In this document: in pieces, positions 28,942 to 40,792 of the stretch
Numbering within the stretch: the stretch's first letter is position 1
How the letters are laid out: every line of letters begins with the position of its first letter
From: a virus
Direction: 5' to 3' (one strand)
IMG/VR virus record: IMGVR_UViG_3300009168_000068
Location: 1 to 41,836 of that record
DNA: 41,836 nt
The notes under the pieces: generated by a model
Databases searched by the model: none
What the model saw: only the letters and a program-made list of their open reading frames with translations
Told to the model about the DNA's origin: nothing
Position numbers and translations under genes: made by a program

Positions 28942-29178
28942 CTACTTCACGTCGTAATTCTTCTTCATCTTCGGCAGCGCCTCCGGATCACGAAAGCACT
29001 CCGGCACGCCCATCTCATGCTCGCCGTTCCAGTCCTCATCGGCCGGCAGGTCGCCCTGATACGCCATCGCCTTCCACGTCTCGCGATTCAGCGGCAGGCC
29101 ACGCTCCAGCATGGTCTGCAGCGTCGGGTCTTCCTCGGCATAGCGCGCGGCGATCTCGCGCGGCACATCGTCGCTCAT
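28942..29178 (-). CDS. Hypothetical 78-residue protein before terminase
   Basis: A small acidic, helical protein starting MSDDVPREIAARYAEEDPTL. It contains PLNRETWKAMAYQGDLPADE, a short unit seen in small phage proteins next to terminase genes. It has no visible DNA-binding motif. The ATG overlaps the stop of the 843-residue gene (ATGA). It could be a packaging accessory or small terminase candidate by position, though the protein at 35178 looks better for that. Confidence 0.65.
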   Translation of the reverse strand: MSDDVPREIAARYAEEDPTLQTMLERGLPLNRETWKAMAYQGDLPADEDWNGEHEMGVPECFRDPEALPKMKKNYDVK

Positions 29179-31706
29179 TTCGGTTTCTCCTGCTTGCGCC
29201 AGACCAGCTCTTCCTTGACGAACTTCTTGCCGATCTGCTCGCCCACTGCATCCTTCCCGCGGTTGGGCACAAACCCCAGCCGCTCATAAAGCCGGCGCTG
29301 GTCCTCCCGCGCCACCCTGCCTCGCGCCGCGTCACTGGTCAGCACCACCGGGTTGCCGCGCGCCGCCGCCTCGTCCTGAATCTGGCGGATCACCTCAGAA
29401 CCGAAGCCCTTGCGCTGCGCAGAGGGGAAAATCTCGATACTGGCGATGCGGGTTTGCGTCTCGCCGTGCTCAACCTTCACCTTGCCGATCGGGTTGCCGC
29501 CCGCCGTGATCGTGCCGTCGTCCGCGATCGTCACCTCAGCGTCCTTCTTAGCCGGCGAAACATACCACGTTGGCGGGTCGATGCCACCGGAATGCTCCAA
29601 TATTTGTGCTCGGGCCTGCTGCGCGGTAATCCGCCCCTCACGAAAATCCTGCCAAATGGCTGCGTTCTTGGCGACAAACGCCTCGTCCCGCTTCTGCTCG
29701 GGTGAAAAGAGGCCCCTGACGGCCTCCCAGGCGATCGACTGCACCTGGCGGGGCAACAGGCCCAGCTTCTCCGCCGCCCGCCGGTAGGCCTCATGGTGGA
29801 TCGCATAGCCCCCCTTGGAGCCGGTGACGATCGAGGAACTGCCACCGGTCCCCAGGCCGAAATCGACCACAGGATGGCTCCCGCCCATCGGGCGCAGATG
29901 CGTCGCGTTGATCGCGTGGGTGTCGATCGTCGTGTCGCCCCAATCGCTGTTGGGGCTGATGATGTTATTGAAGAACGAGCGCACCTTGTGATTGCCGCCG
30001 AGACTCTTACTGAGGGTCCGCAGGTCGTCGGTGTGCAACGCCTGCAGCGCCTTCCTGATCTCGCCGAAACTGCCCCAGCCAATCTTGCTCGGCGTGCCGT
30101 CAGCGTTGGTCGAGGCCTCAGCAAACCCGCCTTCCGGGGTGACGATCGGGTAGTCTTTTGAATTGTGCGCCTCGTCATAGGCCCTGGCGAACACCGCCTG
30201 CGCGTCCGGGTCGTTGATCTCCCGCAGAGGCCGACCACGACGCAGGCTCGACAGCGTCATCTCCAAGCTGTCAGCCGATTTCTGCTTGCCGAAGTAACTA
30301 ACCACCGCCTTAGGCGGCTTAGTGCCGTTCTGCACCGCCTCCTGCAACGCCGCGGCGGCCGTCTCCGGCGTAAAGCCTCCCTTGGCCAGCGCTTTGACGT
30401 TCTCCGCCTCGATCTGCGCCTGGTAGGACTGCGACCAGGCCTCCATCTCCGGCGACCAGCTATTTTCCTGGCGGTTCTTGATCACATCGACCAGGCGCTT
30501 GCCCAGATCAGCGTTCTGGTACCAATCTTTTTGCGGGCTTAGGTTCGCCATCAGTGCCGCGATCTGCCGCGGCGTGTAACCCGTCTCCGCAGCGATCTTC
30601 AGCGCGATCTCGTGCGCCCCGTCATACCACCTGGCCGCCCGTGCGACCGTCTCCGGCCCATATCGATCGCGCATGCCGTCATGCAGGAACAGCAGGTTAT
30701 CGACCATGTGCTGGATGGTTTTTTCCACGATGTTGTCGGGGTTGCGCATCCCCTTCACCGGCAGATCGGGGAAGTCCCCGTCGCGCAACAGCATCGCGTT
30801 CTTGTCCCACGCCTCCTTGGCGCGTTTCGACGCCTCCAGGCTGACATTTGACGTGGCGACCGTGTGCGGATCAGCCTCGCCAGGCTCGATGTTCTTCTCG
30901 GCGCGGGTTGAGACGCGGTCCTGCTCGCGGATGCCCTTCAGGATCGGCGTGTCCGCCATCTCCCCCGCAGCTTTGGCCTCCGCCGCCGCGGTCTTTGCCA
31001 CCACCTCAGTGAGCGGCACCGCGTCGGCGGGGCGCACCACGCCCATGGTGCGGTCGATCGCCTCGTCCAGCGCCGTACGCTGCACTGCCCTGGCCTCGGT
31101 GGCCGCCAGGCGGGCATCCCGCTTGCTGCCGCCAAACGCGTTCAGCACGTCAGCGACTGGCCGCTCCAGCGGGTTGACCAGGGAAGCCAGGGCCAGGGTG
31201 CCCTCCGGCGTCACGCCGCCCGTGCGCGGCCCTTGCGACACGTCCCAGGCACCCTGCGCCAGGCTGCGCAGGCCGGCTGGCAGGGCAATCCGCAGCTCGC
31301 CGGTCGCATTATCACGCGCCATCGGCAGCACATCGCCGTATGTCGTGTTGGCTGCGGGCGCCAGGGCGTTCTGCACGGCAGCATCGATCGCCGCATCGCG
31401 GGCCGTGGCCGGGGTCTGGTTGGCCCGGTGCAGCGTCATCCAGCCAAGGTTCGTGCTCGGCGCGTCATAGCCGGCATAGTTCACCAGCCGCTCGGTGCCG
31501 ACCACGTTGCTGGTAGGCCACATCGGATTGACCGGCGTCGGCGGCGCACTCCACGCAACCGGTGGCGCATAGCGTGGCGCGCCGCTGGTGACGCCTGGCA
31601 GCGCCTCGACACCAGGGTCGAGCATATTGCCCCGAGCGCGCAGTGCGGCCAGCCAGGCCTCCAGCGCGTCGGGTGACGCCGTCAGCAGTGCATTGTCCGA
31701 GGCCAT
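29175..31706 (-). CDS. Large polyvalent-type protein with C-terminal GNAT domain
   Basis: An 843-residue multidomain protein. Residues 1-300 are Ala/Pro-rich and low in structure. The middle (about 320-660) contains TGYTPRQIAALMANLSPQKD, then DLRTLSKSLGGNHKVRSFFN and NIISPNSDWGDTTIDTHAIN, the S-P-x-x-x-W / F-x-N-I...T-I-D-x-H-A pattern of a helical domain found in phage polyvalent proteins. Residues about 735-825 are a GNAT fold (IEIFPSAQRKGFGSEVIRQI; RRLYERLGFVPNRG). Such proteins may be packaged and injected to act on the host, which is an inference. It precedes the terminase genes. Confidence 0.7.
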   Translation of the reverse strand: MASDNALLTASPDALEAWLAALRARGNMLDPGVEALPGVTSGAPRYAPPVAWSAPPTPVNPMWPTSNVVGTERLVNYAGYDAPSTNLGWMTLHRANQTPATARDAAIDAAVQNALAPAANTTYGDVLPMARDNATGELRIALPAGLRSLAQGAWDVSQGPRTGGVTPEGTLALASLVNPLERPVADVLNAFGGSKRDARLAATEARAVQRTALDEAIDRTMGVVRPADAVPLTEVVAKTAAAEAKAAGEMADTPILKGIREQDRVSTRAEKNIEPGEADPHTVATSNVSLEASKRAKEAWDKNAMLLRDGDFPDLPVKGMRNPDNIVEKTIQHMVDNLLFLHDGMRDRYGPETVARAARWYDGAHEIALKIAAETGYTPRQIAALMANLSPQKDWYQNADLGKRLVDVIKNRQENSWSPEMEAWSQSYQAQIEAENVKALAKGGFTPETAAAALQEAVQNGTKPPKAVVSYFGKQKSADSLEMTLSSLRRGRPLREINDPDAQAVFARAYDEAHNSKDYPIVTPEGGFAEASTNADGTPSKIGWGSFGEIRKALQALHTDDLRTLSKSLGGNHKVRSFFNNIISPNSDWGDTTIDTHAINATHLRPMGGSHPVVDFGLGTGGSSSIVTGSKGGYAIHHEAYRRAAEKLGLLPRQVQSIAWEAVRGLFSPEQKRDEAFVAKNAAIWQDFREGRITAQQARAQILEHSGGIDPPTWYVSPAKKDAEVTIADDGTITAGGNPIGKVKVEHGETQTRIASIEIFPSAQRKGFGSEVIRQIQDEAAARGNPVVLTSDAARGRVAREDQRRLYERLGFVPNRGKDAVGEQIGKKFVKEELVWRKQEKPK

Positions 31707-35935: not shown

Positions 35936-36511
35936 TCAGAGCCGGTGCAGCGCGTCGAGCGGGACAGTCACCTGGCGCAGCCCGCCCAACAGCAAAATGG
36001 CGACGCTGGCTGTTGAGCGGCGCAGCTTGACGATGACGCCCTGGTGTCCCTCGAGCGCAGTGCCCGCGCCGAGGCTCACAGCGTCACCTGGCGCATACAG
36101 CGCCCGTGGTGCCTCGAGGGTGCGACGACCATCCTCGGTCGCCACCAGCGCCTCCACGGCGCCATCAGGACAGGCGATCGGCAGGTTCCCCACCCGCACC
36201 AGCGAGGCGACACCGAGCGTGTGCAGCACCGGCCGCCACGGATCACGCGTCGCGTCGAACCGTACGAAAAGATACCTAGGGAACAGCGGCACCTGCACGG
36301 CGTGCCACATCGAGCGCACCACCCGGTCCCGCTGCCGGACGGCGAGGAGGGGCAAATACGCCTGATAGCCTTGCCGATCGAGGTGTTGTGCGGCCCGCCG
36401 CTCCGCCTGCGGGTGGCTCATCACGACGTACCACGACGCCCTGCCACCACCACGGCTACCGCACGGCGTGGTAGCCGACCCATTGGCTGCCACACCGCAT
36501 GTTGTGTCCAC
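35936..36511 (-). CDS. NusG/RfaH-like transcription elongation factor
   Basis: A 191-residue protein. From about residue 26 it shows the NGN domain: SWYVVMSHPQAERRAAQHLD, GYQAYLPLLAVRQRDRVV, then VPLFPRYLFVRFD, followed by LGVASLVRVGNLP. The C-terminal part, YAPGDAVSLGAGTALEGHQG and VIVKLR, is a KOW-type barrel. NusG homologues ride on RNA polymerase, and specialised ones such as RfaH prevent termination in particular operons. The start is GTG at 36511 or GTG at 36493, both without a strong ribosome site; an 8-bp inverted repeat lies in the extension (36453-36477). It stands just after a hairpin cluster at the head of the late genes. Confidence 0.85.
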   Translation of the reverse strand: MDTTCGVAANGSATTPCGSRGGGRASWYVVMSHPQAERRAAQHLDRQGYQAYLPLLAVRQRDRVVRSMWHAVQVPLFPRYLFVRFDATRDPWRPVLHTLGVASLVRVGNLPIACPDGAVEALVATEDGRRTLEAPRALYAPGDAVSLGAGTALEGHQGVIVKLRRSTASVAILLLGGLRQVTVPLDALHRL

Positions 36512-37493: not shown

Positions 37494-37542
37494 CGCCACC
37501 CGCTCCTTCTCTTTTTTGAGAAAACACATCGGCCACCGGCAA

Positions 37543-37670
37543 GCTTCACCCGGCTTCAAAGCTTCAGGCTTCAGCACCCCCCCGTAGGGGGCTGAAGCTT
37601 TGAAGCCGGGTGAAGCCAGGCCCCAAAAGCTTCACTTGAAGCCGAAAAACGTGTTTTGAAGCTTTGAAGC
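37543..37670. repeat. TGAAGC iteron array with 25-bp inverted repeat (putative origin)
   Basis: Eleven copies of TGAAGC or its complement GCTTCA lie in 128 bases, starting at 37543, 37553, 37561, 37568, 37593, 37601, 37611, 37629, 37637, 37657 and 37665, many spaced by 8 or 10 bases. 37543-37567 and 37592-37616 are exact inverted copies of 25 bases, around a 24-base loop that itself holds CCCCC and GGGGG. An AT-richer flank with A and T runs follows (37640-37800), as do three GANTC sites. The pattern suits a theta-type origin or a regulatory site for the nearby primase-helicase. Confidence 0.7.
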
Positions 37671-37762
37671 TGTTCAACGATTCCAGTCACTTAGCCGAAC
37701 ACCCCCATGACACCTTTGATAAAAGACAAATGTGCACGCCCTTTTTTCAGTTATCGCCTGAA

Positions 37763-38569
37763 TCACCCCGAAAATCCCGTCTCATTTTTTGAATCAGGGA
37801 GGTATTCCAGCCGTTCCCAGGTCGCTTTGGCGACTGCTGCCGGCACATGATCGCGCCACCACGGCTGGTCCATCAGGGCCAGATGCGCGGCGCGATAGGG
37901 CAACCCTGCCATCACATCGGCGACCTCAACGGCACCCAGTTCGAGGGCAGCGAAGTCCGGCACCGGAGCCTCCGGCCACCCCCGCATCGGGTAATGCTCG
38001 GTTGCCCAGGCGATCACGCTGGCGACAGCAAGACTAACGCGCAGCCAGTTCCGTGGCGCACCATGCAGCACATACCGGGTGAACCGCGCAGGATCGTAGA
38101 CCACGGCCGGCGGCACCCTTGAGATGTCCACCTCGATGGCTGCCAGCCCAGTGTCGTGGATCAGTCGCCGCTTCGCATCGTCCACCTGGTGCCGGTAGCG
38201 CACCTCGACAGCGAGGTCCGCAGCCTCAGCCCCGGTCTGCACCAGCACATCCACCACGAAGCCCGCAAACCGCGCCTCCAGAACCGGCGCGGCGTAGGCC
38301 ACCACCTGCCCGCCAGGCAGGCTGACCTCCCTGGCATCGAGCAGAATCTGCTGGGCAAAGCTGTGCGCGTCGCTCATCAGGCTGCCGCTGCAGCCGGCCC
38401 CGGAGCCGAGATGGCGAAAGTACCACACCCGTTCCTGACCATGCGCGGCGACGAATGGCTGTCCGCAGGTAAGGCAGACCACATTGGCAGCGCGTCCGCG
38501 CTGCGCGTCCTGCACATGCACCAGCCGGCCATCCGGCCCGCGTCCGAGAGGATGCAGTACGTCAGCCAT
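37763..38569 (-). CDS. CoiA-like zinc-finger and nuclease-fold protein
   Basis: A 268-residue protein. The N-terminal part holds VVCLTCGQPFVAAHGQERVW then YFRHLGS, a C-x-x-C plus H pattern as in CoiA and related proteins. A PD-(D/E)XK-like core follows (VVDVLVQTG, ADLAVEVRYRHQVDDAKRRL, then LAAIEVDISR), though the usual E-x-K reads E-V-R, so catalysis may be altered or lost. CoiA helps DNA processing in competence; the phage version probably acts on DNA ends or in replication. It lies downstream of the primase-helicase. Confidence 0.75.
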   Translation of the reverse strand: MADVLHPLGRGPDGRLVHVQDAQRGRAANVVCLTCGQPFVAAHGQERVWYFRHLGSGAGCSGSLMSDAHSFAQQILLDAREVSLPGGQVVAYAAPVLEARFAGFVVDVLVQTGAEAADLAVEVRYRHQVDDAKRRLIHDTGLAAIEVDISRVPPAVVYDPARFTRYVLHGAPRNWLRVSLAVASVIAWATEHYPMRGWPEAPVPDFAALELGAVEVADVMAGLPYRAAHLALMDQPWWRDHVPAAVAKATWERLEYLPDSKNETGFSG

Positions 38570-38575
38570 TACACA

Positions 38576-40729
38576 TCACCCCACACCCCGTATTGGCCAC
38601 AGATGGATGCTGCGTCGGCCCAGACGACGCATGACGATAAGCCGCTTGATGATGCGGCGCAGTGTCTGCAGGCATGCCCGCACTTCCTTCTGCTCATCCG
38701 GCGCGCCGTTTCGCATAAGGTACTCCGTCCGTACCATGTCGAGCGTCACGCACCACCCGCCACCCTCCGGGTATCCACCATCCTCGTCCGGCATCGCCTC
38801 ACGGGAGTGCTCGCTGGCCAGCAGCTCATCGACCATCTCCAGCACCAGTTTCTGGTCGTCAGTCAGCCCCTTGCCTGCGAGCGCGGCATCCTCTGCCGCG
38901 GCCTCCTCCGCAACCGCCTGCCCACCGATCGGCACCAGTACCAAGGACGACCGCTCATCCGGCGGCAGTAGGCTATGGGGTGGCATAGGTCGCGGCGGCA
39001 GTTCCACCTTCACCATGTCGAACGCCATGTCAGCCGCCGGCTCCGCGTCTTTCTGATCGACGTTCCGCACCACCACCCGTGAGGAGCGCGCCCGCCTGGT
39101 CACCGAGAAAGACGCCTCGACGGCGCCGCGCAGGGCTGTCGAGCCGCGCATGCCCTTCTTTTCGTCCTTGCCCATGTGATGGATCGGCACCACCGCACAG
39201 TGCAGCTCTGCCTGCACCTCGCCGCCTGCCGCGATCACCAGCCCCAGATGCTGCGCCGAGTTCTCGTCGCCGCCTGGCATCCCGCGGGCCAGCGTGTCGA
39301 TCACCACCATCGCCACCCGCACGCCGGCTGGCACCACGGCCCGCACCGCCGCAATCAGCGCCGCTGCGGCGCCAGGCTCCAGGAAATTAATCGCACGGCG
39401 GATGAAGTAGAACGGCAGCTCCGGCCGCATGGCCAAGCCAGCCGCCGTCATCGCTGCCTCGATCCGGTCGCCCATGCCGCCAATGCCTTCAGCGGCGATG
39501 TAGACCACGGCACCCTGCCGGACGGCCCGCCCGTGCCATGCCAGGCCGGCGACGATATGCACCGCCCAGGCCAACACGAGGAACGTCTTGCCCGACTTCG
39601 GCTCGCCGTAGACCACTGACAGTCCCTCGGCCGGTAGCAGCCCCTCCACCAGGAAGCCTGGCGGCTCGAGCGAGAGCACGTCGAGGTAGTGCAGCAGCTC
39701 GATCGCCGCGCCGCCTGTCCGCCCAGGCGCCGGCCCCGGCTGGTCCCACCCCTCAGCTCCAGACGGATCAACCCCAGGCTCCGGCTCAAACTGCTTCCGA
39801 AACGCCCCCTCGACCGCTCGCCACACCTCGACCAGCGTCTCTTCCAGGGTATACCCAGGCTGCCGGAAGCTCTCCGCCGCAGCCAGAATCTCGCGCGCGG
39901 TCCAGCCGCGGCTGACCCAGTGCCCGACCAGCGCCACCATCGAATTGTGCCAGCCTGGCGCCCCCGCCCGCACTAGCCGCAGCACCTCGTCCCACCGCGA
40001 CAGGGTGGCCAGCATCCCCTCAGGCTGTACAGGGACAGAGGCGGGCGCTGCCTCCTCGCCGAGCCGCAGGAACGAGCGCAGCGAGGCCACCGGGTGCGCC
40101 AGCGGCCGCCCATCGGTGTATTGCACCAGCATGGTCAGCTCCGGCACCCGCCCCGGCTTGACCGGCCAGGCGATCGTGCCAGGCAGCCGCATCAGCCGCG
40201 TCGGGTTCACCACCGCGGGGTCGCCGCCGTAGAGCCGCCATAACCCCTGGTTGAGCTGCCGCACATTCTCCGGCCCGACCAGCGGCTCGGAGCAGCGGAA
40301 CCACAACTGCGCCCGCTCGTAAGGCACGCTGCCGGTCAGCACGCGGCATGTCGGCCTAAACATCGACACGACCTGCCGCGCCCGCTCCATCTGCTCCGGC
40401 GTGTCCAGGTCGCCCCACAGGCCAGGCGCCTGCACCATGTCGGCATCACGGGTGAACCCGCCGTCAGACCGGACGCGCACCGTCGCCGCGCGAATGTACA
40501 TCGACTGCCCCGGCGCCAGGTTCTCGACCACAGCGGTCGCCGTCAGCTCCGCCACGCTGTCCAATGCGAACTGTCGGAAGTGGATCAGCCCGCGCCCGCC
40601 AGGATCGAGCCAGCCGATCTCCAGCGCGCCTGCGGTGCAGAACGCAAACCAATGCTGAACAAATGCGGTGATCTGCTCGGCATCCGGCCGCAAATCGCAA
40701 TCCGGCCCCGCGTAGGGTTGCCCGACCAT
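38576..40729 (-). CDS. Primase-helicase (AEP primase plus RepA-like ATPase)
   Basis: A 717-residue replication protein. Residues 1-240 are an archaeo-eukaryotic-type primase domain: GLWGDLDTPEQ at about 106 bears the metal-binding D-x-D, and CRVLTGSVPYERAQLWF plus PTRLMRLPGTIAW are the usual following motifs. Residues about 360-560 are a RecA-fold ATPase with VVYGEPKSGKTF (Walker A) and VAMVVIDTLARGMPGGDENS (Walker B), like RepA/DnaB-type hexameric helicases. The C-terminus is acidic then winged-helix-like. The ATG at 40729 has AGGGGGG before it. With no DNA polymerase in the genome it probably starts host-dependent replication at the iteron region. Confidence 0.88.
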   Translation of the reverse strand: MVGQPYAGPDCDLRPDAEQITAFVQHWFAFCTAGALEIGWLDPGGRGLIHFRQFALDSVAELTATAVVENLAPGQSMYIRAATVRVRSDGGFTRDADMVQAPGLWGDLDTPEQMERARQVVSMFRPTCRVLTGSVPYERAQLWFRCSEPLVGPENVRQLNQGLWRLYGGDPAVVNPTRLMRLPGTIAWPVKPGRVPELTMLVQYTDGRPLAHPVASLRSFLRLGEEAAPASVPVQPEGMLATLSRWDEVLRLVRAGAPGWHNSMVALVGHWVSRGWTAREILAAAESFRQPGYTLEETLVEVWRAVEGAFRKQFEPEPGVDPSGAEGWDQPGPAPGRTGGAAIELLHYLDVLSLEPPGFLVEGLLPAEGLSVVYGEPKSGKTFLVLAWAVHIVAGLAWHGRAVRQGAVVYIAAEGIGGMGDRIEAAMTAAGLAMRPELPFYFIRRAINFLEPGAAAALIAAVRAVVPAGVRVAMVVIDTLARGMPGGDENSAQHLGLVIAAGGEVQAELHCAVVPIHHMGKDEKKGMRGSTALRGAVEASFSVTRRARSSRVVVRNVDQKDAEPAADMAFDMVKVELPPRPMPPHSLLPPDERSSLVLVPIGGQAVAEEAAAEDAALAGKGLTDDQKLVLEMVDELLASEHSREAMPDEDGGYPEGGGWCVTLDMVRTEYLMRNGAPDEQKEVRACLQTLRRIIKRLIVMRRLGRRSIHLWPIRGVG

Positions 40730-40792
40730 CGACAACCCCCCCTATTGCTGCGTCGCAGAATATTCCATATGTCGTCCGCTCGTGTGTGTGAT

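Follow-up and report, generated by a model that had tools for sequence, protein, structure and literature searches.

A TGAAGC iteron array behind a RepA-like primase-helicase gene as the probable replication origin of a tailed phage

We propose that the window, by which we mean the whole 41,836-nucleotide stretch of phage DNA analysed here, holds its replication origin in the intergenic region 37494-37762, where copies of the hexamer TGAAGC are gathered around a hairpin. Judged from the sequence, this cluster is very probably the site at which copying of the phage DNA starts. We also consider it probable that the iterons are read by the phage's own RepA-like primase-helicase, which would be loaded there as a double ring and whose primase would start synthesis. 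The preliminary description of this DNA had wavered between an iteron-type origin and a regulatory element; equivalent arrays behind related helicases, in many phages, in prophages and on some plasmids, argue for the former, and a purely regulatory role has become the less likely half of that statement. The features on which the argument turns are the following.

38576..40735, minus strand: primase-helicase, 719 aa, with an AAA_25 / RSF1010 RepA-like RecA-fold helicase in mid-protein
38594..38860, minus strand: predicted winged-helix domain of that protein (residues about 626-714, from the structure model), proposed iteron reader
37763..38569, minus strand: CoiA-like protein, 268 aa, between helicase and array; weak DUF7830 match, below cut-off
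37715..37754: A+T-rich stretch (27 of 40 bases), joint highest in A+T among all 40-bp stretches of the genome and a candidate for unwinding
37543..37670, both strands: iteron array of 11 exact TGAAGC copies, mostly opposite in orientation on the two sides of the central hairpin
37543..37567: perfect inverted repeat of 25 bp, left arm, which holds 3 iterons
37592..37616: right arm of that repeat, likewise with 3 iterons
37578..37591, minus strand: apical hairpin, CCCCC-TACG-GGGGG when read along the gene strand; its counterpart in related arrays is a C/G stem with a T-N-N-A loop
37215..37493, minus strand: 92-aa gene after the array, with homologues in relatives

The array is as dense as first described: the 11 exact copies, five on the minus and six on the plus strand, compare with 16 over the remaining 41.7 kb of the window. 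Successive copies start 10, 8, 7, 25, 8, 10, 18, 8, 20 and 8 bases apart, that is, mainly in the 8- and 10-base steps reported earlier. The inverted repeat is complementary at 25 of 25 positions across a 24-nt spacer, and the C5/G5 element assigned to the loop is present there as C7-GTA-G5 (37577-37591). When the intergenic region was shuffled 2,000 times with its dinucleotides preserved, no hexamer reached more than 5 copies (mean of the best, 2.8). No other 250-bp stretch of the window is as self-repetitive as the array region, and both of its strands fold far more stably than shuffles (RNA z -5.8 and -6.3; DNA z -6.7 and -7.7). Read along the gene strand, the copies are mainly GCTTCA ahead of the apex and TGAAGC beyond it, with one exception (37629). 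Specific short repeats near an initiator gene and an adjoining A+T-rich stretch, the general hallmarks of an iteron-type origin, are thus both found here.

The two termini of the window share an exact repeat of 123 bp, so the genome is circular and complete. It encodes a P22-like portal, and its terminase genes lie downstream of the array. The genes around the array are those named in the preliminary description, in the order helicase, CoiA-like, array, 92-aa, 180-aa and NusG-like, and all the large ones nearby are on the minus strand. A cumulative GC skew, suggested earlier as a check, falls almost monotonically across the genome and nearly all large ORFs lie on one strand, so that skew cannot test the origin and discriminates neither way. 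Some further features were seen in passing. The NusG-like antiterminator (35936-36511, minus strand), upstream of the terminase genes, is conserved in several relatives. A 238-aa phage protein (33915-34631, minus strand) has a PEP-CTERM sorting motif at its end (Pfam E 5e-8), which is unusual for a phage, and an 843-aa protein (29175-31706, minus strand) combines a DUF7178 region with a C-terminal GNAT acetyltransferase domain. A lone perfect DnaA box, TTATCCACA, is located at 396-404 on the plus strand, distant from the array.

Which protein might read the repeats? The primase-helicase has an AAA_25 core (E 5e-32), and RSF1010 RepA is both its sole solved relative by profile (hmmsearch E 2.5e-12) and its best fold match (Foldseek E 2e-11). 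Its N terminus gives a weak RepB_primase match (E 7e-4, below the curated cut-off). Single-protein searches of the viral and genome collections returned no close relatives of the helicase or of the CoiA-like protein. At the C terminus the structure model shows the succession helix-strand-helix-helix-strand-strand, predicted to be a winged helix; Foldseek gave no significant match for this part, and the VIA-align rows are mostly winged helices (Z about 8), although scores of this size may arise from a widely shared arrangement. Such a domain, if the model is right, could read the repeats. The 92-aa protein is disfavoured as the reader because its homologues occur in relatives with no array seen beside them, and the primase-helicase is the likely reader of the two.

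Searches with the portal and terminase yielded about 75 relatives. None of them has a TGAAGC array, which is absent from 12 portal relatives and from the terminase relatives, and a pattern scan of the viral collection gave 53 TGAAGC matches, mostly of 4 copies, none of them a two-strand array behind a helicase. What recurs is the array and not its word: many relatives carry, upstream of the terminase, a cluster of a different hexamer (GATACG, CTGTCC, GGTGCC, GCCAAT, GCGTGA, ATGTCC, CCGCCA and others). When the window and its structural-module relatives are taken together, all eight AAA_25 helicase genes found (8/8) are followed by an array, and the word differs in almost every case. It had been proposed that a lack of repeat conservation in relatives would speak against an origin; since the word changes while the array persists, that is the wrong yardstick, and TGAAGC itself is indeed not kept while an array of another word stands in its place. 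Relatives with other initiators (DUF1376, HTH_36, D5/VapE-like) have, in several cases, an array in or behind that gene. L045, L071, L084, L090 and L093 possess initiator genes with intragenic repeat arrays, in the manner of lambda O. Two more, L025 (8540-9110) and L032 (17790-18340), contain degenerate GGCAGG / GGGCTTGGC repeats over about 560 bp, ahead of a gene resembling the DnaA C-terminal domain, possibly yet another type of origin.

A survey with the helicase profile retrieved 80 viral and 18 genome loci, which together with the earlier loci form 49 clusters at 60% identity. If an array is defined as a single hexamer occurring 7 or more times within the 400 bp that span the stop codon, 27 of the 49 clusters (55%) have one, against 0.9% of 3,490 control windows; some helicase clusters have none at the stop. 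Along the locus the signal appears only in windows at the stop and is gone a few hundred bp further. A perfect inverted repeat of at least 9 bp accompanies 85% of arrays versus 12% of controls, and a stem of at least 6 bp with a T-N-N-A loop is found in 13 of the 49 versus 1.2% of controls, T-N-N-A making up 13 of 26 four-base loops in arrays and 17 of 322 in controls. At the hairpin the motif tends to change its orientation (p 5e-4), a rough indicator, given that the automatically chosen hairpin is not the central one in several arrays, the window's included. Covariation between motif and C-terminal domain is weak: the partial Mantel test gives p 0.002, and the effect is largely lost once pairs sharing any 16-mer are dropped. 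The iterons lie directly downstream of the helicase in most relatives; in the window one gene intervenes and the distance is about 900 bp, which counts against the proposed reading. Arrays displaced by one or more genes are few elsewhere, two other phages being examples (MW202711 and Vibrio phage 1.210.O).

Cultured phages with an array and a hairpin behind the helicase include Rhizobium phages RHph_N65, 16-3 (14 copies) and RHph_X2_25 (15), Roseobacter phages CRP-811 and CRP-823 (11) and Alteromonas phage PB15 (13). The same arrangement is found on a Methylobacterium plasmid (8 copies) and on Caenibius plasmid p1 (12), where the window's apex CCCCCTACGGGGG recurs. Klebsiella phage IME279 and an E. 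coli plasmid have weaker arrays of 6 copies each, and none was seen behind the helicase in CRP-810, Caulobacter phage GB2A or Mycobacterium phage Zenteno07.

This recurrence behind one gene family also bears on what else the repeats might be. They might serve transcriptional control, as operators for a phage regulator of the downstream operon, from the 92-aa gene onward, or in autoregulation of the replication operon. An array upstream of a same-strand gene set would fit this idea, as would repeats in two orientations, which suit a repressor or an activator. We regard it as unlikely, however: unrelated phages and plasmids carry arrays behind the helicase gene although the genes downstream differ, and a search for sigma-70-like promoters on the gene strand gave none at the array. 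The initiator could, for its part, also act as a repressor. A little less likely again is an RNA element, the long hairpin acting once transcribed, whether in termination, in attenuation or on stability, perhaps together with the NusG-like protein. The strong gene-strand RNA fold with its C(UACG)G apex and the nearby NusG-like gene invite this thought, but no U-tract follows the hairpin, which a terminator scan did not flag. Moreover, the loops of relatives are not tied to one strand, occurring as TTTA and as the reverse complement TAAA, and the hexamers outside the hairpin are left unexplained. A packaging site bound by the small terminase is very improbable: hexamer repeats are present at pac of phage P1, and the window has a P22-like structural module (portal) with terminase genes downstream, yet terminase relatives with a large subunit 72-82% identical have unrelated arrays or none there, and the arrays track the replication gene, plasmids included.

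How would a replication origin of this kind work? In the model that we favour, the RepA-like primase-helicase, whose gene lies just upstream, would bind the TGAAGC iterons with the predicted winged helix at its C terminus. Two helicase rings, pointing opposite ways, would be loaded by copies that face each other across the perfect inverted repeat. The duplex may open at the adjacent A+T-rich stretch, through extrusion of the C/G hairpin, or by both routes; the helicase would then unwind the DNA and its N-terminal primase domain would start synthesis. The hairpin may serve in priming, much as the ssi sites do in RSF1010. More tentatively, we suggest that the window exemplifies a kind of origin that is widespread among tailed phages and plasmids, a generalization that seems to us about as open to doubt as to belief. 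In this class a RecA-fold RepA-like helicase, fused to a winged helix and often to a primase, would read a private, fast-changing word of 6-9 bp behind its own gene, arranged around a C/G hairpin whose recurrent C-T-N-N-A-G apex would be the site of priming or opening. The probable origin of the window departs from the known kind in having a RecA-fold RepA-like helicase where the others have a D5-type initiator, and in the C/G hairpin as a recurrent part. The class is apparently undescribed, the open-access literature that we searched having given precedents and no description. If the proposal is true, each element has its own replication address, so that an origin would not be fired by a related phage; origin specificity can then shift fast while the architecture persists. 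A clustered private hexamer with a C/G hairpin behind a RepA-like helicase would become an origin-finding rule for many uncharacterised phages and some plasmids, and cultured phages such as Rhizobium phage 16-3 offer directly testable cases.

Set beside known systems, the sequence is best read as that of an initiator helicase with an origin behind its own gene. In SaPI Rep and Cch2, the C-terminal domain binds short iterons directly downstream of their own genes (PMC7581432), and the pri-rep-ori of PICIs supports replication (PMC6092414). Like SaPI/PICI pri-rep-ori and SCCmec Cch2 (PMC7581432, PMC6092414), the window joins a putative initiator helicase and a C-terminal DNA-binding domain, here a predicted one, to short iterons downstream, which in the window lie one gene further on. 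Those systems rely on D5 / AAA+ helicases, whereas the present protein is an AAA_25, RepA-like helicase of RecA fold; in PICIs, furthermore, two iteron sets flank the A+T-rich stretch, while here the C/G hairpin is central and the A+T-rich stretch lies to one side. The oriV of IncQ plasmid RSF1010, served by RepA, RepB' and RepC, resembles the window in its homologous helicase, in origin iterons and stem-loops (PMC4234260) and, weakly, in RepB_primase similarity, and profile and fold matches alike suggest that the window's helicase is of the IncQ RepA type. RSF1010 has a separate iteron binder, RepC, whereas here the predicted winged helix is fused to the helicase and no separate RepC-like binder was recognised among the scanned proteins, which are part of the window's ORFs. 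Replication of phage P4 (alpha, ori/crr) needs two sites, its primase is TOPRIM-type and its helicase belongs to another class, in contrast to the single TGAAGC cluster and RepA-like enzyme seen here. Common to both, by prediction in the window, is the union of primase, helicase and C-terminal winged helix in one protein, that of P4 alpha binding short repeats (PMC4234260). The stem-loop origins of pRN1 (ORF904) and Bordetella phage BIP-1 are alike in having a primase-helicase that ends in a winged helix, with a large stem-loop close behind its gene (PMC4234260), although theirs is an SF3 helicase and no iterons are reported at the stem-loops. Finally, lambda O-type origins likewise pair an initiator with its own iterons, as the relatives with intragenic arrays do; the array of the window is instead intergenic, and its initiator would be the helicase itself.
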